Assembly: GCF_003258705.1 (NCBI RefSeq)
Contig: NZ_CP029480.1
Span: 3,596,001-3,660,000 of the forward strand
Length of the DNA: 64,000 bases
Direction: 5' to 3'
DNA from: Arcticibacterium luteifluviistationis
GTDB taxonomy: Bacteria; Bacteroidota; Bacteroidia; Cytophagales; Spirosomataceae
Shown: piece by piece, positions 4,872 through 41,061 of the stretch
How positions within the stretch are numbered: the stretch's first letter is position 1
How the letters are laid out: the number at the start of each line of letters is the position of its first letter
The notes under the pieces: generated by a model
Database searches by the model: none
What the model saw: only the letters and a program-made list of their open reading frames with translations
Told to the model about the DNA's origin: nothing
Program-made: the position numbers and the translations under genes

Positions 4872-6323
4872 ATGAATTATAGACTTCTATTTATACTTTT
4901 TTTAGGTTCTTTGGCTGCTACGGCACAAACGAAACTCTCAGGAGCGGGATCTCCCAAAACCTACTCCCTTTATGAATGCATTGATTATGCTTTAGAGCAT
5001 AACATAACTTTACGCCAAAGTGAACTTGCTATTGAAAGCAGCTCCATAAGACTAAAGCAATCAAAGGCAGCAGTTCTACCGAGCTTAAATGGTCAAGTAA
5101 ATGCCAATACCAACTTTGGTAGAAACATTGACCCTTTTTCAAATGATGTAGTAACTAGTACTATTGGTACCAACTCCTTAGGAGCAGGTGCAAATATGCT
5201 TTTGTACAATGGCTATCGCTTGAAGAACACTATCATCAGAAGTGAGCTTGACCTAGAGGCGGCCAGGCTTGATGTAGAAACTCAAAAAAACAACATATCT
5301 CTAAATGTTGCGGTGTCTTATCTGAATGTTTTATCATCAGAAGATATGATTGAGGTGGCAAACCAAAATGTAATTGTTACTAAGCTTCAACTAGACCGAA
5401 CCGATAAACTTGTAAAAGCTGGTGCACTTCCTGAAACTAATATTTTCAACCTGAATGCTCAGCTAGCTAACGACGAACTTCAGTTAGTAAATGCTCAAAA
5501 CGGATACCAATCAAACATTTTGACGTTAAAGCAAAACATGAATTTGCAGAACTATGACGCCATAAGCATTGAACGTGTGGAAGTGCCTAACCCTTCTATG
5601 CAAGTTTACCCAGAAACACCAGAGGAAGTATACGAAGCAGCTCTAAACTACCTGCCTGAAATAAAGTCTTCTATCATGAGAGAAAAAATGGCGGAAGTAA
5701 ATATTCAAATAGCCAAAGCAGCTGGCTTACCTAGCATTAGTGCAAATGTAAGCTGGGGTTCTTCCTATTCCACAATCGCAAAAAACATTGTTCCCGGAGC
5801 TACAGTCTATAACCCCATTGCGGTATCTGCAGAGTTTGAAGGACAAACCATACCTTTTGTAGTTAATTTTCCTGAACAAAGCGTTACCAGAGAAAGCATT
5901 CCATACTTCAATCAGCTCAATAACAACCAGAATCTCAATATTGGAGTATCTATGCAAATTCCAATATTTAATGGCTACAACAAAAAATATCAAATGCAGA
6001 GTGCTCAAATTCAGAGAAGACAATCTGAGTTAACTACAGAAAATGCGAAAGTGGGCATTCGTCAAAACATAGACCAAGCATACATCAATATGCTTAACGC
6101 ATCAAAAAGCTACAGTGCCAACTCCGTTCAGGTTAATGCTTTACAAAGAGCCTTTGAAGCCGCCGACGCAAGCTACAATGCCGGTGCATCAAATTATGTG
6201 GACTATAACTTAGCCAAAACTAACCTCGACAGAGCATTGGCAAACCAAATTCAGTCAAAGTATGACTACATTTTCAAAATTAAGATTTTGGACTTTTACC
6301 AAAACAAACCGCTAGAATTCTGA
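4872..6323 (+). CDS. TolC-family outer-membrane efflux channel protein
   Basis: Outer-membrane exit duct of a tripartite export system. The 483-residue protein starts with a cleavable signal peptide (about 1-18, LFLGSLAATAQ). It then has two related alpha-helical halves rich in Asn, Gln, Ala and Leu, typical of outer-membrane efflux protein repeats: the first begins at YSLYECIDYALEHNITL (about 32-48), and the second ends at LDRALANQIQSKYDYIFK. Length is normal for Bacteroidetes TolC homologues. The adaptor gene starts 17 bp downstream on the same strand, so the two form an operon. No inner-membrane ABC or RND pump gene follows, so the pump must be encoded elsewhere or shared. Confidence 0.93.
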   Translation: MNYRLLFILFLGSLAATAQTKLSGAGSPKTYSLYECIDYALEHNITLRQSELAIESSSIRLKQSKAAVLPSLNGQVNANTNFGRNIDPFSNDVVTSTIGTNSLGAGANMLLYNGYRLKNTIIRSELDLEAARLDVETQKNNISLNVAVSYLNVLSSEDMIEVANQNVIVTKLQLDRTDKLVKAGALPETNIFNLNAQLANDELQLVNAQNGYQSNILTLKQNMNLQNYDAISIERVEVPNPSMQVYPETPEEVYEAALNYLPEIKSSIMREKMAEVNIQIAKAAGLPSISANVSWGSSYSTIAKNIVPGATVYNPIAVSAEFEGQTIPFVVNFPEQSVTRESIPYFNQLNNNQNLNIGVSMQIPIFNGYNKKYQMQSAQIQRRQSELTTENAKVGIRQNIDQAYINMLNASKSYSANSVQVNALQRAFEAADASYNAGASNYVDYNLAKTNLDRALANQIQSKYDYIFKIKILDFYQNKPLEF

Positions 6324-27978: not shown

Positions 27979-30900
27979 TCAAGGACAAACAGTCCCTATT
28001 TTAGCTTCAAACACAGAACCACCTTCAATTTCAAAGCCTTCGTTTAGCTCAATAAATCTGCCTGCTTTGTAAGTTCCTTTACTTGTGCTTGTAATGTTAT
28101 TTTCAGCCTTAATAACGTTTATGGCGTTTTTGCTAAAAAGCTCCCCTGTCAAATCGTTTTGTGGTGAAGTCAAGACTAAATCACTTCCAATAACCTTTAC
28201 ACTTTGAACGCTAGGCTCAGAAGCAACAACTGGAGATGTAGAGACTACCATTATTTTATAATTATCGCCACCCGCAATACTTAATGGTATTTGACAATTT
28301 ATAGCATTAGCATCTGACCCACTTCCAATGAAAGTTCTTGTACTAAAACTACCTGAAGGTTCTGATAAATAGACTTGATATAAATTCCCTACTCCGTAGG
28401 GGTGTAATGCCTGATTTTCTGAATTAGCAGAGACTACCAAACTTGAGCCAGCACACACTTCAGTAACACTACTTGTAGGCTCCGAAATCGTTCTCCCATA
28501 CCATAAGACATCAAAAGGAATAACATCTGGACCAACAATCACACTTCCTTGAGCATTGTCTTGGCTATACCCACGAGAAATAAATGTATAATGATTCGGA
28601 GCTAAAACATCCCCAATATTAACATTCATATTTTCATGCAGATTAAACGGCATGTTATTATCAACGTAATACTGCAAATTACTAGTCCCCGATAATTGAA
28701 ACTTAACACTTTCAATGGTAGGTTGACTACAAGATGAAATTGCTACAACAGACATTGGTCTTGAAGTAGCCTGCACTTGAAGGTCTTCCACCAAAGGCGA
28801 GATAATTTGAGGATTATCATCAGAGAAGACCAAGTAATAATTCAGTTTTTGAGAACTACAAGACACCAAAACTTCTGTAGTAGCCGTATATGAACAGTTA
28901 TTAACATCAGAAACCGTTACCATATACAAACCCGCTTTTGATGATGTCGCATTTACTATACTTGGATTCTGGAGAGAGCTAAAATACCCAGATGGGCCAG
29001 TCCAGCTATAAACAGAACCTCCCGTAACATTTAAGTTAATCATATCTCCTTCATTATAAGGACCAGTATTTGAAGCAGAAATAGAACCTAAAGGATCTAC
29101 TAAAATTTGCGTTTCACTAAATAAAGCTTGACAACCATTAACCGTTACAGAAAAGTTTGAATACTGAGCCGCCGTTAAATTTGACAATGTAAAACTACCA
29201 TCTCCTCCTACAGTTACTACTTGACTAGCATCGGCTGATCCTTTATTAAAATATACTGTTTGACTGCCTAACGGAACATCTGTAGAACTAAACTCTATAG
29301 AGCCGTCTGTTCCTAAACAGGTCGTTGGGCTTGTCTTTGATGTAGCTGTTATGGTTGGTGTGGCCGGGTCTGCTAACACTTGGGCTGTAGCAAATGTACC
29401 TTCGCAAGCATGTTCTGTTACCGAGAAATCAGAATATGAACCAGAACCTAAACTTGATAAAGTAAAGCTGCCATCGCCTGCTACCGTTACGGCTTGGCTT
29501 GTACTTGTTGCTCCTTTTTTGAATGAAATAGTGTGACTACCAACTGATAGATTCGAAGAACTAAACACTATAGAGCCGTCTGTTCCTAAACAGGTCGTTG
29601 GGCTTGTCTTTGATGTAGCTGTTATGGTTGGTGTGGCCGGGTCTGCTAGTACTTGGGCTGTAGCAAATGTACCTTCACAAGCATGTTCTATTACGGAGAA
29701 ATCAGAATAGGAACCTGCTCCTAATCCTGATAAAGTAAAACCTCCACCGCTCGCTACTGTTATTGATTGACTAGTACTTGTTGTTCCTTTTTTGAAGGAA
29801 ACTGCATGGCTACCTGCTGATAGATTCGAAGAACTAAACACTATAGAGCCGTCTGTTCCTAAACAAGTCGTTGGGTTTGTGTTTGATGTTGCTGTTATAG
29901 TTGGTGTAACTGGGTCTGTTAATACTTGAGCTGTAGCAAATGTACCTTCGCAAGCATGCGAAGGTACGGAGAAATCAGAATAGGAACCTGCTCCTAATCC
30001 TGATAAAGTAAAACCTCCACCACTCGCTACTGTTATTGATTGACTAGTACTTGTTGTTCCTTTTTTGAAGGAAACTGCATGGCTACCAACTGATAGATTC
30101 GTAGAACTAAACACTACAGAGCCGTCTGTTCCTAAACAGGTCGTTGGGCTTGTCTTTGATGTAGCTGTTATGGTTGGTGTGGCCGGGTCTGCTAGTACTT
30201 GGGCTGTAGCAAATGTACCTTCACAAGCATGTTCTATTACGGAGAAATCAGCATAAGAACCTGCTCCTAATCCTGATAAAGTAAAACCTCCACCGCTCGC
30301 TACTGTTATTGATTGACTAGTACTTGTTGTTCCTTTTTTGAAGGAAACAGTATGGCTACCTGCTGATAGATTCGAAGAACTAAACACTATAGTTCCTTCA
30401 GTTCCTAAACATGTAGTTGGGCTTGTGTTTGATGTTGCAGTTATAGTTGGTGTGGCTGGATCTGCTAATACTTGGGCTGTAGCAAATGTGCCTTCGCAAG
30501 CATGCTCTGTTACCGAGAAATCAGCATAAGAACCTGCTCCCAATCCTGCTAAGGTAAAGCCTCCACCGCTCGCTACTGTTACTGATTGGCTAGTACTTGT
30601 TGTTCCTTTTTTAAAGGAAACAGTATGGCTACCTGATGATAAATTCGTAGAACTAAACACTATCGTTCCTTCAGTTCCTAAACATGTCGTTGGACTTGTG
30701 TTTGATATTGCGGTTATAGTTGGTGTGACTGGGCCTGATAATACTTGGGCTGTAGCAAATGTGCCTTCGCAAGCATGCTCTGTTACCGAGAAATCAGAAT
30801 ATGAACCTGCTCCTAATCCTGATAAGGTAAAATCTCCACCGCTGGCTACTGTTACTGATTGGCTAGTACTTGTTGTTCCTTTTTTGAAGGAAACTGTATG

Positions 30901-33900
30901 GATACCAACTGATAGATTCGTAGAGCTAAACACTATCGTCCCGTCCGTTCCTAAACAGGTCGTTGGGCTTGTCTTTGATGTTGCCGTTATGCTTGGTGTT
31001 GTTGGGTCTGCTAATACTTGGGCTGTAGCAAATGTACCTTCACAAGCATGCTCTGTTACGGAGAAATCAGCATAGGAACCTGCTCCTAATCCTGATAAGG
31101 TAAAGCCCCCACCGCTAGCTACTGTTACTGATTGGCTAGTACTTGTTGTTCCTTTTTTGAAGGAAACTGTATGGATACCAACTGATAGATTCGTAGAGCT
31201 AAACACTATCGTCCCTTCAGTTCCTAAACAGGTCGTTGGGCTTGTCTTTGATGTTGCCGTTATGCTTGGCGTTGCTGGGTCTACTAATACTTGAGATGTA
31301 GCAAATGTACCTTCGCAAGCATGCTCTGTTACCGAAAAGTCAGCATATGAACCAGCTCCCAATCCTGATAAAGTAAAACCTCCACCACTCGCTACTGTTA
31401 CTGATTGACTAGTACTAGTTGTTCCTTTTTTGAAGGAAACTGTATGAGTACCAACTGATAGATTCGTAGAACTAAATACTATCGTTCCGTCCGTTCCTAA
31501 ACATGTCGTTGGGCTTGTTTTTGATGTTACAGCTATAGTTGGCGTGGCTGGGTCTGCTAATACTTGGGCTGTAGCAAATGTACCTTCGCAAGCATGCTCT
31601 GTTACGGAGAAAGCAGAATAAGAACCTGCTCCTAATCCTGCTAAGGTAAAGCCTCCACCGCTAGCTACTGTTACTGATTGGCTAGTACTTGTTGTTCCTT
31701 TTTTAAAGGAAACAGTATGGCTACCTGCTGATAGATTCGTAGAGCTAAACACTATGGTGCCTTCCGTTCCTAAACAGGTCGTTGGGTTTGTCTTTGAGCT
31801 TGCTGTTATTGTTGGTATGGCTGGGTCTGATAAAGTAATCGAAGAACCGTCTACGTAATAACTTAAAGTAAAGTCCTTATAAACTCCTGCCTTCAATCCG
31901 CTTAATAAAAATTGACCTGAACTAACAGTTACCATTTGAGGACTTCCAAAGCCATCATAACTTAATGAATAAGTTCCATCTGGCAAATTAGTCGAGCTAA
32001 ATGCAATACTTCCATCAGCTCCTAAACATTCTGTGGGATTAGTTTTTACTCCTGCTAGAATACTAATATTAACCTGAGCCTCGAACACTCCTAAATCTAT
32101 TCTTCCGCCAAAAACTCTCGGATTACTATTTTGGTCTAACAGACCTAAACTAAAGCCTGTAGTATCAACAATACCCGTGTTTACTCCAATAGAATATGGC
32201 TGAAGTTGAAAGTCATTTGCCGCAGAATCCAAAAAGTCTGGATAGGTGTTAAAGAAAACATTGTCACCACACTTTCCTGCACCTAGACTAGCACAGTCCA
32301 CATTACTAATAATTGAGTTTTTAACCGAATCTGTACTGGAAGCATAGTTAACACCACCATAACCTATTCCATTAATGTTACTGGAAACAATAGAATTAAT
32401 TAGTCTCGTATTGCTAATACCATTATCAAAATTAGTAGACGTTATTGCAGATAATGTATCTGAATAGTTTTTAACTATGGTACTGTTAATAATATCAGAA
32501 TTAACTATACCATCACCTTCTACATAAACATCAATAGCTCCAGACTCTAATGCTAAATTGTCTAGAAAAAGTGATTGAGCAATTTTAGAATTTACGGTAC
32601 CATCATAGGAAGAGACCGAAACCGCCCCTCCAAAACCTGCTATATTACCTGCAAATCGAGCGTTAAAAATATTGGTATTATTTATAACACCTACATTGTC
32701 TGTATAGATAGAAATAGCACCTCCCACACCATCTTCATCATCCGCTATATTGTCTTCGAAAATACTGTTCGAAATCTGTGTATCGTTGCTTGCTCCAAGT
32801 CCGTATACATCTGTATTTATGGCTCCTCCACCAAAATAGGCACTGTTTGTGACAAAATGGCAGCTATCTATTAGAGGTTTCATGTTTCCCTCATCAATGC
32901 TTACATTGATAGCTCCACCTAAATCATCCGCGTAATTATACCCAAAAACTGACCGATTAATTTGTGGTTCATTTATGCCCATCCCTATTGAATTCAGAGA
33001 GATAGCACCTCCATAGACCGCAGCGTTAAATCCAAACACATTTGAGTCTATCAGCGAAATGTTCTTTCCTCCAAAAGCTGCTATATAAATGGCTCCTCCA
33101 TAAAGGTCTGAATAATTATAAAGAAAGAAATTATTCAACAAAGAGGGCATCATGGTTTTACCATTTTCTGCTAAAATATGAATGGCTCCTCCTTTGTCTT
33201 CTGCATAGTTGTTCTCGAACAAACAATTAGAAATTATCAAGGATACGGAGTCTACATTCATGGCGTGTAGGAACATTCCTCCACCTTCCGTATTTATAGG
33301 ATCTATACCATCAGCAAAGCCTTCTGAAATAACTAATCCATCTATCATACCACCTTTAATATCTTTAGCAGTAATAACATGATAAGCATTATCACTATAG
33401 CTTCCATCTAATTGAATATTTCCACTAAGAATAGTTTCATAGGTCTCCCAGTTTCTTTCGTGAAGCGAATCAATATTATTTGCAGGACTAAAACCTCCTA
33501 AGATTATAAGTGAATCCTGCAAACTAAATGTAGCCAACCTTGGGTCTGAAGGAATAGCATTATTATATTTAGAAGGTTTATAACTACCCTTTGCTACAAA
33601 TACAGTATCAATTTCAGAACAAGATGCAGCATCCAATGCCATTTGTAAATCTAGGAATGCATTCGCCCAATCCGTTCCACTATTCCCTCCAGAAGTAGCC
33701 GCTGAATCCACATATATTATAGTAGCTAGTTCAGGATTTCCTTGAAACTCAAAAGCTCCAATATCTGCCATTCCTCCTGCAAATATTCTTGGTAAATTAA
33801 CTAAATCAAAACTAGGTATTCCATAGCCTAAGGTGTCTTTCCCTGCGTTTATTGCTGGTGAGCAAAAACTCAACCTTAGGTTACCACCAATTGATGGTGC

Positions 33901-35385
33901 CGTTGGCACATTTTCAATAAATAGAGGGTCTAAAAGAACTGCAGAGGTACCTTTTAGTGTGCTATTTAAAAACAAACCTGAAACATCGGTAGCATCTCCT
34001 ATAAGGTTATTTCCAAGGTCTGTAAGCGAACTTCCGCAATCATCATAATAAATGTCAGTATTTGAAGGGCTAGTGTTGCCTGCTATAATCGTATTTGCGA
34101 AAGCACTATTGCCATACATACTTATACCACCACCACGGTTTGTGGCCATATTCCCTGCCACTGTTGTATTATACAATCTAATAGTTCCTCCACTATTATT
34201 CACTCCACCTCCAATGCTAGCTTTGTTTCCTGATATTTGTGAGTTGTAAACATCTAAGTTATTATTCATAACCCGAATACCCCCTCCACCATTTCCAGTG
34301 TTTCCTTGTAGGTAAGAATTATATATTTTGAAGTCTCCTTGCGTAGCTACTCCTCCTCCATCTGCGGTAGTAGTGTTATTTCTAATTATGGAAGCTTTCA
34401 TAACCACATTCCCACTGTTCATTATACCAGCACCCTGAATGGTAGCATTACCATTTTGAATAATCAAAGAATCTAAAAAAGCATTAACTCCAGAAGAGAC
34501 TTGAAGAACCCTCCCGTTAGCTTGCCCATCAATGATGGTTCTATAGGTAGAGTTACCCACAATTGTTACATCTTTATCTAACAATATTTCGCCAGAAGTA
34601 AGCTTTATGGTATCACCAGCTATTATTTCGCTAAACCTTATAGTGTCGCCAGCAGAAGCCTTTGCCAAAACATCTCTTAAAGAACCACAGCCATTATCAC
34701 TTGTATTAGAAACTATTCCGTCTGTAGCTTCTCCTGTTATATAAAAACTGTAAACACCTTCGTCTACATCAGATGTGTATACTATAACCTCCGCCGAATC
34801 TGGACAAATAGCCAGTGGCTCAAAAACAATAGACAGCAAAAGAGAATCTCCACTTTTTAAAGAATCATACGGTGCCGTACCAAAATCAAGAACAGGTGTA
34901 TTCAACTTGAAGCCGGTGCTACCATTTAATCCAAAAACTTTTACAGAATCTAACTGCAGACCATTAAAACCAACATTTTTAAGATAGAAATCTACACTTT
35001 GGGTTTCTGTTAAACCAATTACTCCAAAGCTGGTACTGTCTAATACCGATGTGGAAACACTGCCGTCTACTATTTCTTGTCCATTTCCTAGAATAGCCAA
35101 ATCGGCCACTGGAGACAGAGCTCCCGTCAATGTTGGATTTGCGGCACCAGTAATATCTGGGTCGTTAGACAAGACAGTCGCAATACCCGAGCCTGTTAAT
35201 TTTAGCTGATTACTTATTTCCGTAACGGAGGAGCCAAATTCTTTGACCTTGGCATCATAAATTATAACAAGCGTGTCTCCTTCTTCAAGCGTTCCTATAT
35301 TGATAGGAAACTGAGCAAAAATTGAACTTGACGCAAACAAGCATAAAATCAATGCTCCAAAAATGGTTTTGATTCTTAATTCCAT
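27979..35385 (-). CDS. Giant secreted repeat protein (beta-helix plus tandem 91-residue repeats)
   Basis: A 2468-residue predicted surface or secreted protein; last gene of an eight-gene operon. Signal peptide about 1-24. Residues about 30-210 resemble a choice-of-anchor-D/Ig-like domain. About 225-550 is a right-handed beta-helix ending in a choice-of-anchor-Q-like segment (PAINAGKDTLGYG ... ADIGAFEFQGN). About 560-1110 is a second beta-helix of the polymorphic-membrane-protein kind (LFENNYAEDKGGAI-type repeats). Residues 1114-2104 hold eleven repeats, nine of them near-identical 91-mers, each with two Cys (PTTCLGT and EHACEGTF). An Ig-like stretch and a Bacteroidetes 3-coathanger-like C-terminus (about 2415-2468) follow. 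No canonical type IX C-terminal signal is evident. Its start overlaps the upstream DUF6916-like gene by 10 bp. Confidence 0.88.
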   Translation of the reverse strand: MELRIKTIFGALILCLFASSSIFAQFPINIGTLEEGDTLVIIYDAKVKEFGSSVTEISNQLKLTGSGIATVLSNDPDITGAANPTLTGALSPVADLAILGNGQEIVDGSVSTSVLDSTSFGVIGLTETQSVDFYLKNVGFNGLQLDSVKVFGLNGSTGFKLNTPVLDFGTAPYDSLKSGDSLLLSIVFEPLAICPDSAEVIVYTSDVDEGVYSFYITGEATDGIVSNTSDNGCGSLRDVLAKASAGDTIRFSEIIAGDTIKLTSGEILLDKDVTIVGNSTYRTIIDGQANGRVLQVSSGVNAFLDSLIIQNGNATIQGAGIMNSGNVVMKASIIRNNTTTADGGGVATQGDFKIYNSYLQGNTGNGGGGIRVMNNNLDVYNSQISGNKASIGGGVNNSGGTIRLYNTTVAGNMATNRGGGISMYGNSAFANTIIAGNTSPSNTDIYYDDCGSSLTDLGNNLIGDATDVSGLFLNSTLKGTSAVLLDPLFIENVPTAPSIGGNLRLSFCSPAINAGKDTLGYGIPSFDLVNLPRIFAGGMADIGAFEFQGNPELATIIYVDSAATSGGNSGTDWANAFLDLQMALDAASCSEIDTVFVAKGSYKPSKYNNAIPSDPRLATFSLQDSLIILGGFSPANNIDSLHERNWETYETILSGNIQLDGSYSDNAYHVITAKDIKGGMIDGLVISEGFADGIDPINTEGGGMFLHAMNVDSVSLIISNCLFENNYAEDKGGAIHILAENGKTMMPSLLNNFFLYNYSDLYGGAIYIAAFGGKNISLIDSNVFGFNAAVYGGAISLNSIGMGINEPQINRSVFGYNYADDLGGAINVSIDEGNMKPLIDSCHFVTNSAYFGGGAINTDVYGLGASNDTQISNSIFEDNIADDEDGVGGAISIYTDNVGVINNTNIFNARFAGNIAGFGGAVSVSSYDGTVNSKIAQSLFLDNLALESGAIDVYVEGDGIVNSDIINSTIVKNYSDTLSAITSTNFDNGISNTRLINSIVSSNINGIGYGGVNYASSTDSVKNSIISNVDCASLGAGKCGDNVFFNTYPDFLDSAANDFQLQPYSIGVNTGIVDTTGFSLGLLDQNSNPRVFGGRIDLGVFEAQVNISILAGVKTNPTECLGADGSIAFSSTNLPDGTYSLSYDGFGSPQMVTVSSGQFLLSGLKAGVYKDFTLSYYVDGSSITLSDPAIPTITASSKTNPTTCLGTEGTIVFSSTNLSAGSHTVSFKKGTTSTSQSVTVASGGGFTLAGLGAGSYSAFSVTEHACEGTFATAQVLADPATPTIAVTSKTSPTTCLGTDGTIVFSSTNLSVGTHTVSFKKGTTSTSQSVTVASGGGFTLSGLGAGSYADFSVTEHACEGTFATSQVLVDPATPSITATSKTSPTTCLGTEGTIVFSSTNLSVGIHTVSFKKGTTSTSQSVTVASGGGFTLSGLGAGSYADFSVTEHACEGTFATAQVLADPTTPSITATSKTSPTTCLGTDGTIVFSSTNLSVGIHTVSFKKGTTSTSQSVTVASGGDFTLSGLGAGSYSDFSVTEHACEGTFATAQVLSGPVTPTITAISNTSPTTCLGTEGTIVFSSTNLSSGSHTVSFKKGTTSTSQSVTVASGGGFTLAGLGAGSYADFSVTEHACEGTFATAQVLADPATPTITATSNTSPTTCLGTEGTIVFSSSNLSAGSHTVSFKKGTTSTSQSITVASGGGFTLSGLGAGSYADFSVIEHACEGTFATAQVLADPATPTITATSKTSPTTCLGTDGSVVFSSTNLSVGSHAVSFKKGTTSTSQSITVASGGGFTLSGLGAGSYSDFSVPSHACEGTFATAQVLTDPVTPTITATSNTNPTTCLGTDGSIVFSSSNLSAGSHAVSFKKGTTSTSQSITVASGGGFTLSGLGAGSYSDFSVIEHACEGTFATAQVLADPATPTITATSKTSPTTCLGTDGSIVFSSSNLSVGSHTISFKKGATSTSQAVTVAGDGSFTLSSLGSGSYSDFSVTEHACEGTFATAQVLADPATPTITATSKTSPTTCLGTDGSIEFSSTDVPLGSQTVYFNKGSADASQVVTVGGDGSFTLSNLTAAQYSNFSVTVNGCQALFSETQILVDPLGSISASNTGPYNEGDMINLNVTGGSVYSWTGPSGYFSSLQNPSIVNATSSKAGLYMVTVSDVNNCSYTATTEVLVSCSSQKLNYYLVFSDDNPQIISPLVEDLQVQATSRPMSVVAISSCSQPTIESVKFQLSGTSNLQYYVDNNMPFNLHENMNVNIGDVLAPNHYTFISRGYSQDNAQGSVIVGPDVIPFDVLWYGRTISEPTSSVTEVCAGSSLVVSANSENQALHPYGVGNLYQVYLSEPSGSFSTRTFIGSGSDANAINCQIPLSIAGGDNYKIMVVSTSPVVASEPSVQSVKVIGSDLVLTSPQNDLTGELFSKNAINVIKAENNITSTSKGTYKAGRFIELNEGFEIEGGSVFEAKIGTVCP
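29338..31794 (-). repeat. Nine tandem 273-bp coding repeats
   Basis: Measured from the codon for the first residue of each unit (K/N in K-T-S-P-T-T-C-L-G), units 2-10 span exactly 2457 bp, which is 9 x 273 with no indel. Each unit encodes 91 residues. Units differ by scattered substitutions shared between non-adjacent units (for example NLSAGS versus NLSVGI, LADPATP versus LSGPVTP), the mosaic pattern expected from recombination or gene conversion. Two divergent units flank the array (31795-32046 and about 29070-29337). Confidence 0.93.
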
Positions 35386-35777
35386 ACGTTTTCAATTAAT
35401 TGTTCCGTTGAAGAAGCATTTGATTTAATCATAAAATAAGCCTGAACCAGTCCCTTATTTGGAAGTTCGAAAGCATAAAGACCATCTTCTGGTAAGGGTT
35501 TGCCCAAGTTGTTCCAAACTAGTACAAATGGGTTTCTGAAATCATCAGTACCATTATCCACAACCTCTATTTCTTTCAAAAGTGCTTCATGTTTTTGACC
35601 GGAAGCTCCTACCAAACTTACTGTAGAACCTACTAAGGCGTCAAAGTCAGTAGACGCTAGTACCGACATATTTGCTAGTTTCAAACTAGAAGCATTTCCT
35701 ATAGTAGGCAAAGCAACCCAAAACGAAATGGCTGCAAGTCCCTTCCCTATTTGGTTAACAAACTTTCTTCTTTTCAT
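35376..35777 (-). CDS. DUF6916-like protein with a Tat-like signal
   Basis: A 133-residue protein of unknown function. It begins MKRRKFVNQIGKG followed by a hydrophobic stretch (about 14-30), which looks like a twin-arginine-type signal. The rest (about 42-127) resembles the DUF6916 pattern: DFDALVGSTVSL, then NPFVLVWNNLGKPLPEDG, then LYAFELPNKGLVQAYFMIK. Its gene overlaps the giant repeat-protein gene by 10 bp and follows a second DUF6916-like gene by 7 bp. Association of DUF6916-like genes with phage-tail-collar genes is recalled from other genomes, not checked. It may assist export or assembly of the operon's surface proteins. Confidence 0.6.
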   Translation of the reverse strand: MKRRKFVNQIGKGLAAISFWVALPTIGNASSLKLANMSVLASTDFDALVGSTVSLVGASGQKHEALLKEIEVVDNGTDDFRNPFVLVWNNLGKPLPEDGLYAFELPNKGLVQAYFMIKSNASSTEQLIENVWN

Positions 35778-35784
35778 GGTACTT

Positions 35785-36054
35785 TTAATTAAATACAGCT
35801 TCGTAAAGCATTTTATCTCCTTTGGGCCCTATGGGAACCATAAAAATGAAAACCACCTCTCCTGATGGAAACTTCACTTCGTATGTTCCTTGACTATAGT
35901 AACTTTCTTTTTGATGCGTACTTAGCAAAACCGAAAAAGCCAGCCCTTTGTCGTCTAACTCTTTTAATTCTTCTATCTGAGCTGCCATTTCTAGAGCTGG
36001 CTCAAACAAAACTTGCACCTCGGCATTAAGATTTTTTTGAAATACTTCCTTCAT
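35785..36054 (-). CDS. DUF6916-like small protein
   Basis: An 89-residue protein without a signal peptide. GTYEVKFPSGEVVFIFMVPIG (about 57-77, 21 residues in two strands around Pro63) matches the end of the DUF6916 pattern seen in the neighbouring 133-residue protein, and SVLLSTHQKESYYSQG matches its middle. So two related small proteins lie side by side, one with and one without an export signal. The start ATG lies 29 bp inside the GNAT gene, indicating tight translational coupling. Function unknown. Confidence 0.6.
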   Translation of the reverse strand: MKEVFQKNLNAEVQVLFEPALEMAAQIEELKELDDKGLAFSVLLSTHQKESYYSQGTYEVKFPSGEVVFIFMVPIGPKGDKMLYEAVFN

Positions 36055-36526
36055 AAGATTTCTCCATATATAAATAAACCCCTTTGTCTTCTATGGCTTT
36101 AAAGCCCAATCGATAATAAAGTGAGAGAGCGGGATTATTCTTTTCTACATGTATTTTAACTGGCTTCTTCTTTTGAAAAGCCTCCTCTATAATATTTTTC
36201 AGAATAAAGTTTCCAATACCCTGGCGTCTATACTTTGACAAAATGGCTATATCAATAATTAGAATTTCTGCTTCATTCTCTCTTAGATACAGCCTTCCTA
36301 CTTTAACTTCACCTTGTAAAATCACATCAAAATTACCATCACCAAAATGCGTTTGATAATGACTATGCTGACTACCAAACTGCTGGTCAATGAAAGCTTC
36401 TTTTTCTGCCTCCGACCATTGCACCAGCATACCCATTTCTTCTTCTCTGGTAGAAGCATAAACCTCCTTTAAAAAGGGCAGGTCAGCATCTTTAATTGAT
36501 CGATATGTTATGCCTTCACTAATCAA
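36026..36526 (-). CDS. GNAT-family N-acetyltransferase
   Basis: Predicted acetyl-CoA-dependent acetyltransferase of 166 residues; cytoplasmic. The acetyl-CoA-binding motif A is seen at DIAILSKYRRQGIGNFILKN (about 92-111, RRQGIG at 100-105), followed by the usual HVEKNNPALSLYYRLGFKAI region. The start codon is TTG, overlapping the TGA of the upstream tail-collar gene by 4 bp (TTGA). Its place between tail-collar and DUF6916-like genes suggests it modifies a product of this operon, but the acceptor is unknown. Confidence 0.85.
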   Translation of the reverse strand: MISEGITYRSIKDADLPFLKEVYASTREEEMGMLVQWSEAEKEAFIDQQFGSQHSHYQTHFGDGNFDVILQGEVKVGRLYLRENEAEILIIDIAILSKYRRQGIGNFILKNIIEEAFQKKKPVKIHVEKNNPALSLYYRLGFKAIEDKGVYLYMEKSYEGSISKKS

Positions 36527-37050
36527 CCTCTAGATGGAAACAGGCCGGTTAAAGCCATAATGAAATTTAGAGCCAAATAGGGCTGCATGTTATTATGAGC
36601 TTGCCCTCCTCCTTTGGTTTCTAAACCTCCTAAGTTCATAGGAACAAGATTGCTTGCACTTGCAGTAGCATAAGGCATTTTAGAGGGAACTGTTGTTGCC
36701 AAAACTCCTCCTACAGGACTAGAAACAGAAGCCTGCTCAGATGATGCTCGCATAGCATGAGTATGACTTGGCATTTGAGCCTCTGACAATGTTACGGTTT
36801 CAGAGCCCCCTCTTTCTCCCAAACGTCTTGTCGTGAGGCCAGGCCCTCTTCCCGGGTGCATAGCAGCTCTACCTTGTAAATTTGGCAAAGCTGTAGTAGT
36901 CCGGCCATCGCCACCATAAGTGGTACCAATCAAGGAAAACAATGCTGTATTTTGAGAAATTGGTAATAATTGACCGCCACAAAAAGACCAGCCTCTCGGG
37001 GCAAAATTTCCTGCAAATATTCTAATTTCTGCTAAAAATGGTTCTGACAT
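36523..37050 (-). CDS. Phage-tail-collar-domain protein (microcystin-dependent protein-like), copy 3
   Basis: A 175-residue protein related to COG4675 (MdpB-like). The N-terminal collar domain carries FAGNFAPRGWSFCGGQLLPI (about 12-31), then LFSLIGTTYGGDGRTT and LPNLQGRAAMHPGRGPG. A conserved SHTHAM follows near residue 95, and the end is AHNNMQPYLALNFIMALTGL plus FPSRG. There is no signal peptide. The sequence is clearly paralogous to the two genes upstream. Phage collar domains form trimers at tail tips or fibres; here there is no phage context. It is separated from copy 2 by 6 bp. Confidence 0.9.
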   Translation of the reverse strand: MSEPFLAEIRIFAGNFAPRGWSFCGGQLLPISQNTALFSLIGTTYGGDGRTTTALPNLQGRAAMHPGRGPGLTTRRLGERGGSETVTLSEAQMPSHTHAMRASSEQASVSSPVGGVLATTVPSKMPYATASASNLVPMNLGGLETKGGGQAHNNMQPYLALNFIMALTGLFPSRG

Positions 37051-37056
37051 ATTATT

Positions 37057-37581
37057 TTAGTGACTAGATGGATAAACACCAACAAGGGCAATGATATAAT
37101 GTATACATACAAAAGGCATAAGATTACTGTGCGAGCTATCGCCTCCAACACTGGATACCGCGGAGGAACTCATACTAACTGGAGAACCTGTAGATTTTGT
37201 ATAAGTTTTTTCTGTAGTATTACTCGCCAATACTGCATCTATGGGCTGCGTACTATTGGCAAAACTTTCTGTAACCTCTAAACCTCCGTGACTATGAGAA
37301 GGAATCTGATTCTCCGTTATGGTTTCTTTCTCACTGCCAGATTTAGCACCAAGCCCTCGCGGACTTAAACCTGGACCGCTACCAGCATGAACAGGAACTC
37401 TTCCCCTTAAATCTGGTAAGCCAAAGGTGGTTCGTCCATCACCACCATAAATAGTACCAAGTAATGAAAAAAGGGCGTCATTCTGTGATACCGCCAGTAA
37501 CTGACCATCGCAAAAAGCCCAGCCTCGAGGAGCAAAATTCCCTGCAAACATTCTTATTTCTCCAACAAATGGTTCTGCCAT
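37057..37581 (-). CDS. Phage-tail-collar-domain protein (microcystin-dependent protein-like), copy 2
   Basis: A 174-residue paralogue of the flanking genes. I choose the ATG at 37581 (MAEPFVGEIRMFAGNFAPRG) because it aligns with the starts of the other two copies. A longer frame from 37626 would overlap the upstream gene and add unrelated residues. Shared motifs: APRGWAFCDGQLLAVSQN, LLGTIYGGDGRTTFGLPDLR, and SHSHGG. The C-terminus (SNLMPFVCIHYIIALVGVYP) differs most from the others. No signal peptide. Confidence 0.9.
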   Translation of the reverse strand: MAEPFVGEIRMFAGNFAPRGWAFCDGQLLAVSQNDALFSLLGTIYGGDGRTTFGLPDLRGRVPVHAGSGPGLSPRGLGAKSGSEKETITENQIPSHSHGGLEVTESFANSTQPIDAVLASNTTEKTYTKSTGSPVSMSSSAVSSVGGDSSHSNLMPFVCIHYIIALVGVYPSSH

Positions 37582-37586
37582 AATTA

Positions 37587-38105
37587 TTAATTTCGAGATG
37601 GAAAAAGACCCTGTAAAGCAATACAAAAATTTAAAGCTAAATAAGGTTGCATATTATTATGAGCTTGCCCACTCCCATTATTTAAATTAGAAGAAGAACT
37701 CATTTTCTGCAAAACGCCCGTGTTTCTTCTGTATAATTCTTCTGAATAAACCCCTAATACCTTTCCGTCAGGCACATTAGAGTCTCCTGGTGAGCTAGAG
37801 CCCATTATCTCATGTATATGAGTCGGTAACTCCGCTGCTGAAAGTGTATGCGTTTCCTCGCCACTTTTTTGTCCTAGTGGGTGAGAGAAACCGCCATCGC
37901 TTGACCCAACATGAATAGGTGTTCTTCCTCTTAAATCAGGCAGAGCAAAAGACGTTCTACCATCTCCACCATAGGTAGTTCCCAATAAACTAAAGAGGGA
38001 TTGGTTTTGATTGATAGGCAAAATTTGTCCATCACAAAAAGCCCAACCTCTTGGGGCAAAATTGAAACCAACTATTTTAATTTCTGCTAAAAATGGTTCT
38101 GACAT
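37587..38105 (-). CDS. Phage-tail-collar-domain protein (microcystin-dependent protein-like), copy 1
   Basis: A 172-residue member of the same family, first of three tandem copies. Motifs: FAPRGWAFCDGQILPINQNQ (about 15-34), LLGTTYGGDGRTSFALPDLR, PTHIHEI near residue 95, and the same AHNNMQPYLALNFCIALQGL plus FPSRN ending as copy 3. It starts 1 bp after the stop of the 984-residue beta-helix gene. No signal peptide is visible, so its route to the cell surface, if it goes there, is unclear. Confidence 0.9.
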   Translation of the reverse strand: MSEPFLAEIKIVGFNFAPRGWAFCDGQILPINQNQSLFSLLGTTYGGDGRTSFALPDLRGRTPIHVGSSDGGFSHPLGQKSGEETHTLSAAELPTHIHEIMGSSSPGDSNVPDGKVLGVYSEELYRRNTGVLQKMSSSSNLNNGSGQAHNNMQPYLALNFCIALQGLFPSRN

Positions 38106-38106
38106 A

Positions 38107-41061
38107 TTAAGGTATTTTTCGGCAGGTTTCCTGCTTATAATCTACTATATAATTTCCTGAGGCTGGAGCCACGTATGCCGTAGCTGGACCTAAATCTGTT
38201 CCTAAAATAAAGCTTTCTATTTCTGCCGCTAAGCCTCCAGTAACTGGTGTAAGGCCCTCTATATTTAAGACCGTACCGGTATTTTGAAAAGAGGCGTAAT
38301 CTTCTAATAATGCGTCTCCTCTATCAATTCCATTGCCTTCAAGTTTAACGCAAATAGAGTTTGTAGCACCCAAGGCACCACCTGACTGCATAGAATATGC
38401 ATAACTAGGATTTATTCCATTACTTACTGCCACTACATTATCCAAAACCTGAGCATGTAAGCTACCTGTACCTTCATCAGAAACTAATCGTAATCCGTTT
38501 CCATAAAAATCTGAAATAGAGTTATTAGTAAATGACCCAGAGAGGCTATTGTTAATGGTATTATTAGAAATGGTAAGGGTTACTGCAGCATTTACCAATG
38601 CTTTCACATCAATTCCTATACCGTTTGCACCAGGGTCTATGGAATTATTACCTATAAGACCAGAGCAAAACGCTGAGCTAAATCCATTGACAACAATACC
38701 ACTTCCAGTACTAGCAATTATAGTATTTTGATTGACATCAAAAGTCATATTACTTAGTGCGTTTGCCCCTAAGAAAACTCCACTTACCTGCTCAAAACTG
38801 CTTGTTTGAAGCGTATTGAAGATATTATTACTAACCTGCACATTAAGTGTTCCACTTCCTACAGATTGAGCATTCAAGCCGAAGCTTCTATTATCTGTTA
38901 TATTAGAATTTGAAATCAAGGCAAATACATTAGCTTCCGTACCAGCTTCAATAAGAATCCCGTTTGAGCCCAAAGTTTTACTTACTTTTTGGACAATTGA
39001 ATTACTTATAGTTAAGCTATCTGTTCCTGTTTGGTCAATATTATTTAGAACATAAATATTGTTTTCCGTAGAGCCCTCTATCAAGGTGTTATCAATAACA
39101 CAATCGCCCCCACCAGAACCTTTAAAGTTCAATAAATGAATACCGTTTTCGTCAATAGCGTCACCGTTATCCTTAATTATACAGGCATTCAGGTCTAAGT
39201 TACTCGCCAATTTGCCATATAAACCATGCCTTGCCGAATTAAGAATATTCAAATTTGAAAGTTTGACATTCGTTGCGTTTTCTAGATATACACCGTCAGC
39301 TGTGGCATTGTTTATTATTCCGCCACTGTTATTCCTATTTATAGAAGCATCACCCAACACATCAAAACTTCCTGTAGTGTTTTTTAAGTACAAGCCATAA
39401 GTAGACGCATCGGCATTTATTTCTTTTAAGTTAACGTCAAGAGCCATATCAGTAAGCGAGACGGGCATTCCTGTAGTAGTAGTTACGTTTCCATTAGAGA
39501 TATTCAGTGTCCCTCCATTTGACGCCTCTATGCCATTAAAAGTAGAAGTCTTTAAAGAAAATAGCGTAGTCTGATTAAATGTGGTAACAAGTGTAGGGCT
39601 GTTTTGAATAAGAACTCCTTTCTGAGAAGTTGAGGTAATACTTACTGTAGGATTATTGAAAACTATGGTTGATGCTTGATTGTTAGATAAGACCACTCCC
39701 CCTGTAGCTGAAGTAGAGCTGATGTTACCGTTACTAAAAGTATATGCAGAGCCATTTACACTTTGTGAGATATTAATAAGTGCTCCCGAATTGATATTAA
39801 CACTTCCTGGGTAGGTAAAAGTCAAGCCATTTCCTTCAGTAATTTTAATAGATTCCACGAAAGAATTTATATTACTTACATTCGAATTTACTTGAAACAG
39901 ACCTGAAACGGCAGTCAAATCTATCCCCTTAGGTCCTGTAACTTGAAATATATTGAAAACTATATTTGCTCCTGATCCACTTCCATTTGCCAACTGAACT
40001 CCTGAGCCAGACGTATTTATTACATCAACATCCGAAATTTTCACATCGCCTACATTTTGTGAGCCAGCGTTCTCAATAGCTACTGTGGCACAATTTCCTA
40101 CCTGTAAACCCATCACTTGGTTATTAGGTCCAAGAAGCAATCCAGCACCTAACGAATTAGAAATAACGGGCTTAGAAGAAACACCTGGCAAATTAGCACT
40201 ATAGGCAGGTGCGGTAATGCCATATGAACTCAGATTCAAAGCCACTCCTTGACCTATCAGTTTTTGATTTCCTTCTAAAGTCAGTGATGAAACCCCTGTG
40301 GAAGCATAACTTCCTGAATATAGATATATAATATCGCCTGGTTTGTCTAGGTCTGTCCCGTCATTATTAAGAGGACTCAATGTTTTGAAAGGTTTATCAA
40401 ACGTACCATCGCCAGTGCCGTCATTACCATTTGTGGCATCTACAAACCAGATTAAAGGCTCGGAAGCTCCACCCACAGTAATATTAACTTGAGCTTTATC
40501 ATTTGGTGTAAGAGAGTCGCCATCAGAAATTTCGTAATAAAATGTTTCAATACCGGTAAAACCTGCTGCCGGCATAAAAGTAAAAGAGCCATTTCCTTTG
40601 ACATTCACCTTTGAGCCATTTGCTGTGCTAAAGGTGGTACTGGTATCTTGTGTTACAGCATAGCTAATGCCTACTTTAAGTATCTTGATGGCATCCTTAA
40701 AGGAATCTATATCTAAATCATTGCTTAATAAACCGCTTCCCGCATCCACAGAGATGCCTATATTACCAACAGCCGTATAAGAATCTAACCTAGCCAAAGG
40801 GCTTATATGAACACTCCCAGCATTAATGTCTAAATACGTTTCGTTAATTAAGGTGGAATCTAGCATAAGACCAGTAGCCTGACCAGATTCATTTATGATT
40901 TGAACCTTATACCTTATACTATCTCCAGGGTTTGCTAGGTGATCTCCAAGCCCATCTATAATAAGGCTATCAGACTGCGTTACTTTTAAAATCTGAGAAT
41001 AAGAATTAAAAGATACCGCACAACCTATCAAGTAGGTTATAAACAATAAGTTTAGTTTCAT
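38107..41061 (-). CDS. Large beta-helix surface protein with cadherin/Ig-like N-terminal domain
   Basis: A 984-residue predicted secreted protein and first gene of the eight-gene operon. Signal peptide about 1-22. Residues about 25-90 resemble a DUF11-like conserved repeat (GDSIRYKVQIINESGQATG). About 95-195 is a bacterial cadherin/Ig-like domain (GSFTFMPAAGFTGIETFYYE). DATNGNDGTGDGTFDKPFKT (about 207-226) opens a long right-handed beta-helix of parallel-strand repeats with stacks of Asn, Ile and Ser, to about 930. No type IX signal or sortase motif is seen. It resembles large proteins found upstream of tail-collar clusters in other bacteria, as far as I recall. Likely an adhesin or scaffold; function unproven. 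Confidence 0.85.
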   Translation of the reverse strand: MKLNLLFITYLIGCAVSFNSYSQILKVTQSDSLIIDGLGDHLANPGDSIRYKVQIINESGQATGLMLDSTLINETYLDINAGSVHISPLARLDSYTAVGNIGISVDAGSGLLSNDLDIDSFKDAIKILKVGISYAVTQDTSTTFSTANGSKVNVKGNGSFTFMPAAGFTGIETFYYEISDGDSLTPNDKAQVNITVGGASEPLIWFVDATNGNDGTGDGTFDKPFKTLSPLNNDGTDLDKPGDIIYLYSGSYASTGVSSLTLEGNQKLIGQGVALNLSSYGITAPAYSANLPGVSSKPVISNSLGAGLLLGPNNQVMGLQVGNCATVAIENAGSQNVGDVKISDVDVINTSGSGVQLANGSGSGANIVFNIFQVTGPKGIDLTAVSGLFQVNSNVSNINSFVESIKITEGNGLTFTYPGSVNINSGALINISQSVNGSAYTFSNGNISSTSATGGVVLSNNQASTIVFNNPTVSITSTSQKGVLIQNSPTLVTTFNQTTLFSLKTSTFNGIEASNGGTLNISNGNVTTTTGMPVSLTDMALDVNLKEINADASTYGLYLKNTTGSFDVLGDASINRNNSGGIINNATADGVYLENATNVKLSNLNILNSARHGLYGKLASNLDLNACIIKDNGDAIDENGIHLLNFKGSGGGDCVIDNTLIEGSTENNIYVLNNIDQTGTDSLTISNSIVQKVSKTLGSNGILIEAGTEANVFALISNSNITDNRSFGLNAQSVGSGTLNVQVSNNIFNTLQTSSFEQVSGVFLGANALSNMTFDVNQNTIIASTGSGIVVNGFSSAFCSGLIGNNSIDPGANGIGIDVKALVNAAVTLTISNNTINNSLSGSFTNNSISDFYGNGLRLVSDEGTGSLHAQVLDNVVAVSNGINPSYAYSMQSGGALGATNSICVKLEGNGIDRGDALLEDYASFQNTGTVLNIEGLTPVTGGLAAEIESFILGTDLGPATAYVAPASGNYIVDYKQETCRKIP

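Follow-up and report, generated by a model that had tools for sequence, protein, structure and literature searches.

The window, a stretch of 64,000 nucleotides (3596001-3660000 of the single-contig 5.38-Mb genome of Arcticibacterium luteifluviistationis, contig NZ_CP029480.1), carries on its minus strand a gene for a 2468-aa repeat protein (27979..35385, an intact open reading frame (ORF)). The tandem Ig-like units of this protein likely form the stalk of a large surface protein, probably exported by the type IX secretion system (T9SS), with one disulfide staple per junction between the first cysteine of a unit, Cys1(i), and the second cysteine of the following unit, Cys2(i+1). As a repeat, the array adds one more member to a familiar kind; what deserves testing is the junction staple, together with its extension to SprB-type repeats.

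Tandem Repeats Finder reported a single array (29282-31833, period 273, 9.3 copies, 0% indels, score 3781). Nine ungapped 91-aa units with two cysteines each (units 2-10, residues 1189-2007) lie inside the intact ORF at 29365..31821, on the minus strand like all features below unless stated. The sequence-only reading had placed nine 273-bp coding repeats without indels at 29338-31794; these are the same nine units, shifted by 27 bases, and their number and ungapped spacing were borne out. Two divergent units, delimited by the protein register, flank this core, giving a total of 11 units followed by one Ig-like domain. Unit 1 (84 aa, 31822..32073) keeps Cys1 (C1120) and lacks Cys2, and unit 11 (29092..29364) has two cysteines, so that the expectation of two cysteines in every unit held for units 2-11 and failed for unit 1. 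The Ig-like domain 3' of the array (28846..29091) carries a cysteine (C2164) at the position of Cys2 and Tyr at that of Cys1; in the alignment of this domain (A3) the corresponding C66 and Y12 were invariant in 10/10 rows.

AlphaFold2 (AF2) modelled units 8-10 from a 25-row alignment with a predicted local distance difference test score (pLDDT) of 96.7, all beta, with eight strands per unit. In this model Cys1 (residue 16) falls between strand 4-11 and strand 21-28, and Cys2 (residue 78) opens strand 78-82. Foldseek matches of the unit model in the PDB were Fn3 tandems and adhesin extender domains. The VIA-align Z scores were tied and included many Fn3 chains (titin FnIII pair, 8.9; 6xi3 and SiiE, 8.8; ice-binding adhesin, 8.6 and 8.1; GhpA 9flw_A, 8.5), so we limit the claim to the fold class: each unit is predicted to be an Fn3/Ig-like bead. 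No SprB-type chain was seen among the VIA-align fold matches, which excludes nothing. Pfam searches gave no specific family for the unit. CarboxypepD_reg, EMC7_beta-sandw and FAIM1 passed their whole-protein cut-offs as a sum over the repeats, with no single stretch passing, and were set aside as family assignments; we read them as no more than a hint of a beta-sandwich fold. From the predicted order of strands, Cys1 belongs to the AB loop while Cys2 opens strand G. The AB and FG loops of Fn3 domains are found at opposite poles, so the two cysteines would sit at opposite ends of the bead, which raises the question of which cysteines are lost together.

Cysteine losses were therefore counted within units and across junctions. 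A cysteine was scored as present if it lay within 3 residues of its column (within 3 or 4 alignment columns in a set of 407 units), identical or contained ORFs were removed beforehand, and domain matches not covering a cysteine column were excluded from the junction counts, with looser coverage in a set of 325 SprB domains. Among the 407 complete units from the fetched loci, 390 had both cysteines, 12 lacked Cys2, 5 lacked Cys1 and 0 lacked both. At the junctions of these loci, Cys1(i) and Cys2(i+1) were both present at 263 and both absent at 3, and only Cys1(i) was kept at 1; the reverse pairing gave 12 single losses and 0 double losses.

The junction wiring seems also to hold in SprB-type repeats, judged by the same counts (given as both kept / only Cys1(i) kept / only Cys2(i+1) kept / both lost). 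The 325 domains from 20 regions and locus L179 gave 261/1/10/9 (P=3e-11), with one double loss in each of the same-unit (P=0.84) and reverse (P=0.71) controls. A further 40 regions, which came from the same genome search as the first 20 and overlap with them in genomes, gave 375/0/5/6 (P=1e-10) with the previously built model; all six double losses were in L252, and the same-unit, reverse and next-but-one controls had 0 double losses. L179 also belongs to the 407-unit set and was counted only with the SprB set in the pooled and permutation analyses. Pooled under stricter coverage, 886 junctions in 114 proteins gave 857/1/12/16 (P=8e-26): Cys1(i) was also lost at 16/17 junctions without Cys2(i+1), and same-unit double losses numbered 0. 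Within-protein permutation of the Cys2 states gave 16 observed vs 4.4 expected double losses (P=0.0002), with 0 for the same-unit and reverse pairings. Without the homologous triplet proteins L218 and L252 the pooled counts were 828/1/12/3 (P=2e-5), and the permutation gave 3 observed vs 0.44 expected (P=0.005).

The ends of the arrays followed the same direction. First units lacked Cys2 in 14/128 cases and Cys1 in 3/128, and last units lacked Cys1 in 6/102 and Cys2 in 0/102 (P=0.0008). In window residues 1100-2170, the Cys1(i)-Cys2(i+1) wiring uses 22/22 cysteines (1120 to 2164) in 11 bonds; same-unit pairing leaves C1120 and C2164, and the reverse pairing leaves four. The sequence-only reading had raised disulfide-stapled rods as a possibility; co-loss, array ends and the cysteine tally of the window all support such a rod, and point to the specific wiring proposed here.

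Under this proposal, Cys1 of bead i, in the AB loop at the C-terminal pole, would bond to Cys2 of bead i+1, which opens strand G at the N-terminal pole, and the Cys1 and Cys2 of one bead would not pair with each other. The staple would stiffen each junction and keep the stalk from kinking. The first bead would need no Cys2 and has none, and the closing Ig-like domain would need no Cys1 and has Tyr. The protein would be exported and probably held via its C-terminal GCX_COOH domain, with a beta-helix at its distal tip and the stapled stalk in between. We infer the bonds themselves, as well as export, display on the surface, anchoring by the C terminus and the mechanical role.

Several observations weigh against this proposal. 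L218 and L252, which are mutually homologous (46% identity, 2213 columns), contributed 13/16 of the double-loss junctions, and the number of independent events is small. Only Cys1 was lost at 12 junctions, six of them in L230, where the cysteine looks shifted by eye, and L112 lacks a Cys2 while the preceding Cys1 is kept. Looser coverage also brought up a double loss within one unit (L232) and another in the reverse pairing (L225). In L021 the first unit has Cys2, and its upstream neighbour is not an evident partner. The putative surface location and anchoring rest on domain names. A VKOR search of the window genome gave no match, and Thioredoxin_4 appeared only below its cut-off; two DSBA-family matches were above cut-off in this genome.

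One alternative is an internal Cys1-Cys2 disulfide in each unit, which would make the array an ordinary stack of independently stapled beads. It would account for the invariance of both cysteines in the 75 unit positions of alignment A2, whose rows were picked by the analyst from the arrays, and for one SprB-type domain (L232) without both cysteines, an incompletely aligned match. We nevertheless consider it improbable: single losses occurred in 17/407 units and in 31/434 units of the further regions while 0 complete units lacked both cysteines, the predicted strand order sets the two at opposite poles, and two window cysteines would be left unpaired. Less probable still, and in our view quite unlikely, is that the cysteines are free, or bonded between chains or to another surface protein. 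Nothing direct favours this; in Flavobacterium johnsoniae the outer-membrane proteins SprF and PorG are disulfide-linked to GldK, and the part of that paper (PMC12635249) considered here describes these bonds, has nothing on bonds within SprB, and does not contain the terms 'SprB repeat' and 'Ig-like'. Where a cysteine is lost, moreover, the adjacent unit of that chain tends to have lost one as well, a pattern not expected from bonds between chains.

A third possibility, compatible with the stapled junctions, is a length-variable module of the Periscope type, with unit number changing within the population. We regard it as a realistic though minority prospect. The sequence-only reading had proposed recent duplication with recombination, and exchange between units does find support: 241/496 informative site pairs were incompatible with one tree, nearest-neighbour maps showed partner switches inside units, and a tract at 29537..29846 matches 30083-30392, offset by two units, at 304/310 bases. 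This 310-bp tract (6 mismatches) spans a unit boundary, contains a 134-bp exact repeat and is clearly younger than the rest. The alignment of the units for breakpoints gave a divided answer, as the mosaic site pairs, the tract and a head run shared by units 8 and 10 (P=0.0002 for that pair, about 0.007 corrected for the 36 pairs examined) indicate recombination, whereas a clustering test of the pairwise homoplasy index (PHI) type was not significant (P=0.14). Recent duplication of the whole array, on the other hand, is not supported. Units 2-10 share 82-95% DNA identity (mean 88%), with a mean synonymous divergence (dS) of 0.36 and a nonsynonymous divergence (dN) of 0.065, and their 86 variable sites fall at codon positions 1/2/3 in 23/15/48 cases, which shows purifying selection on the units and means that most are not recent copies. 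With such identity and dS, any change in unit number is probably not fast. The longest exact repeat inside the array is 134 bp and the genome is a single contig, so collapse or expansion in assembly is unlikely.

Unit numbers at homologous loci also speak for a length-variable module. The genomes covered were one per species, and none of the 39 relatives listed was of the window genome's genus (Jiulongibacter sediminis and Spirosoma terrae are of the same family). A genome scan with a single unit as query gave no matches, and a 10-row unit profile gave 44 loci. The window array has 11 units vs 7 in Jiulongibacter, whose 1090-aa orthologue has the N-terminal domain and C-terminal region of the window protein. 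Three congeneric species with N-side flanks 92-96% identical have the arrays (AB)3-C-D, (AB)3-C-D and (AB)1-C-D, that is 8, 8 and 4 units; collapse is possible in the (AB)1-C-D array, as the assembly is a draft and one relative has almost the same sequence in units 2 and 4. Two units of G179 had an identity of 0.996. In the orthologous array of the Cytophagales metagenome-assembled genome (MAG) bin.53, two contigs (L033 and L034) end inside the array, as expected where reads fail to bridge a repeat.

Elsewhere in the window genome, arrays of 9 and 8 units lie near 2.77 and 4.71 Mb, respectively. A tree of 57 units, built on few columns and with many unresolved forks, grouped the first units of Jiulongibacter and bin.53 (90/84) and likewise their last units (95/67). 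The core units clustered by locus (Jiulongibacter, 100/98; bin.53, 96/93; window units 2-10, 97/65) and, judging from this tree, are homogenised within each array. The edge units of the window break the pattern, as unit 1 shares an unresolved fork with units of other loci, and unit 11 joins the window core (92/67). In the stapled stalk, unequal exchange between units would keep the core alike and alter the number of beads, and thereby the reach of the N-terminal head.

Periscope Proteins, the closest concept to this array, are described, in the part of the review considered (PMC9704523), as single-chain surface rods with coding repeats that are alike and whose number is proposed to vary by homologous recombination. 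The window protein resembles them in its putative rod of tandem folded domains and in having repeats that are kept alike. It differs in that its units are less alike (the mean DNA identity given above). Its GCX_COOH domain points to a surface location. 'Bacteroid' and 'disulfide' occur 0 times in the review.

SprB repeats (PF13573) share with the window array the tandem beads and the co-loss pattern, and differ in length (about 75 aa in the repeats read vs 91 aa). An hhalign comparison with PF13573 paired both cysteine columns at E 4.7e-4, with a probability of only 32.5%. At E up to 10, a search with 10 units reported 23 families, none of them PF13573, though HMMER filters drop most matches above 0.1. 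The whole protein did not give PF13573 at 0.1 either.

The whole window protein matches GhpA, the grappling hook protein of Aureispira CCB-QB1 (PDB 9flp and others), at E 4.8e-78. The aligned GhpA domains carry two cysteines in the same places, but almost all of the score lies in the Ig-like domain that follows the array (33.3 bits for residues 2079-2174 alone), which aligns with GhpA domains having a cysteine at the Cys2 position; the repeat units are aligned and add little score. A single unit had no match to GhpA at E up to 1 and the unit profile none at E up to 10. We therefore set aside a possible homology of the repeat to GhpA, as the whole-protein match stems mostly from residues 2079-2174 and the unit by itself gave no match within these limits. 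The grappling hooks are summarised in PMC11205867; nothing observed for the window protein points to a hook or a heptamer.

Adhesin extender domains (MpAFP, SiiE, 6xi3) are alike at the level of fold, as tandem Ig-like stalks; searches with the whole protein, a single unit and the unit profile reported none of them in sequence. MpAFP and SiiE are described, in the partial sources used, as Ca2+-dependent or calcium-binding, whereas cysteine staples are proposed for the window protein. The giant adhesin of Mobiluncus mulieris has many Ig-like repeats with covalent cross-links, disulfide included, according to the portion of PMC10619420 considered. The cross-links differ in lying within domains: Cys6887-Cys6895 joins adjacent strands of one domain (PMC10619420, same portion). 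Predicted disulfides, one of them joining a catalytic and an Ig-like domain, appear in the part of PMC11674741 considered. No description of a junction staple was found in the literature searched, which covered few subscription papers; the GhpA paper (Lien et al. 2024) could already show one.

The stability of the bacterial Ig-like stalks compared here has been credited to calcium (MpAFP, SiiE) or to cross-links within domains (Mobiluncus), and a junction staple, if true, would be a different solution, one that explains the strict retention of two cysteines in these Bacteroidota repeats. We give about even chances to the wider idea that SprB-type and related Bacteroidota Ig-like repeats, gliding adhesins included, are disulfide daisy chains in which selected unbolted junctions, for example every third junction along much of L218 and L252, serve as built-in hinges. 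If the staple is real, there would be a sequence rule for stiff vs hinged junctions in the SprB-type fibres that drive gliding. If the daisy-chain idea is also right, the hinge positions of many T9SS surface fibres could be read from sequence, with stiffness written in the cysteine pattern.

L218 (ORF at 5238, plus strand) and L252 (ORF at 2521, reverse strand) hold SprB-type arrays that are homologous to each other. Along much of these arrays the cysteine pattern has a period of three, both cysteines being absent at every third junction there. L230 (G000:C1:1364000-1383000, in the window genome) contains an open frame of 7604 aa with SprB repeats, some of which form a run of near-identical domains whose first cysteine looks shifted.

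The repeat protein ends in a GCX_COOH (3-coathanger stack) domain (27988..28128; NCBIfam NF045639, 50.1 bits vs a cut-off of 26). GCX_COOH domains direct T9SS export and act as C-terminal holding or anchoring elements. The window genome had 54 GCX_COOH matches above cut-off among the 56 listed, and encodes SprA, the translocon of the T9SS (TIGR04189, 2099.2 bits summed from two pieces of a single frame; cut-off 200). The suggestion that the repeats belong to a surface or secreted protein thus gains support, with secretion probable from the C-terminal domain and SprA. AF2 modelled the C-terminal region with a mean pLDDT of 74.1, the last 67 residues falling below 50. At the other end, an N-terminal signal peptide was judged by eye, and a domain at residues 24-100 (35086..35316) is common to the Jiulongibacter and bin.53 orthologues (tblastn, 49% and 51% identity, and hidden Markov model). 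It is followed by a beta-helix-like head (residues about 225-1100, bounds set by the analyst; 32086..34713) with choice_anch_Q at 504-548; Chlam_PMP/POMP repeats match this region below their cut-offs, and tblastn found no match to the head in the Jiulongibacter orthologue (L023). A plus-strand ORF at 30698-31075, antisense to the array, was taken as a by-product.

The repeat gene closes a cluster of genes that lie upstream of it on the same strand, in an order kept in Jiulongibacter and bin.53. A DUF6916 gene (35376..35777; Pfam PF21880, 28.5 bits vs 27) shares 10 bases with the start of the repeat ORF. It is preceded by a GNAT acetyltransferase gene (36026..36526; Pfam), conserved in position, and by three Collar-domain genes, Collar1 (36523..37050; PF07484, E 1.3e-26), Collar2 (37057..37626; E 1.2e-30) and Collar3 (37587..38105; E 1.3e-28). 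A gene at 38107..41061 encodes a 984-aa protein with Pfam matches to Big_9 and Cadherin_5 (Beta_helix below cut-off), which has relatives in L023 (40% identity) and L034 (48%). Since the Collar proteins match phage tail families, we asked whether the cluster derives from a phage. This was rejected: the searches gave no phage-specific match for the other genes, and the cluster recurs in many genomes.

Collar1-like genes (E up to 1e-20) were present in 97/222 genomes of the family. We surveyed the cluster at 25 loci, that is 20 chosen from Collar1-positive genomes, four more carrying units, and the window; L170, L182, L034 and L038 end at a contig edge. A stop-to-stop ORF of at least 1000 aa lies directly downstream in 20/25 loci, not in L172. 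At 8/20 chosen loci this downstream ORF combines the N-terminal domain of the repeat protein with a stretch resembling the 984-aa protein. In the window the two belong to separate genes, and their fusion may hint that both act together. The similarity to the 984-aa protein may be generic, as it is also seen in an unlinked ORF of L172. When searched with the seed unit model, the downstream ORF contained the unit at 1/20 chosen loci (L163, 2 copies), suggesting that the stalk is the variable part of the cluster. L179 has SprB-type repeats instead.

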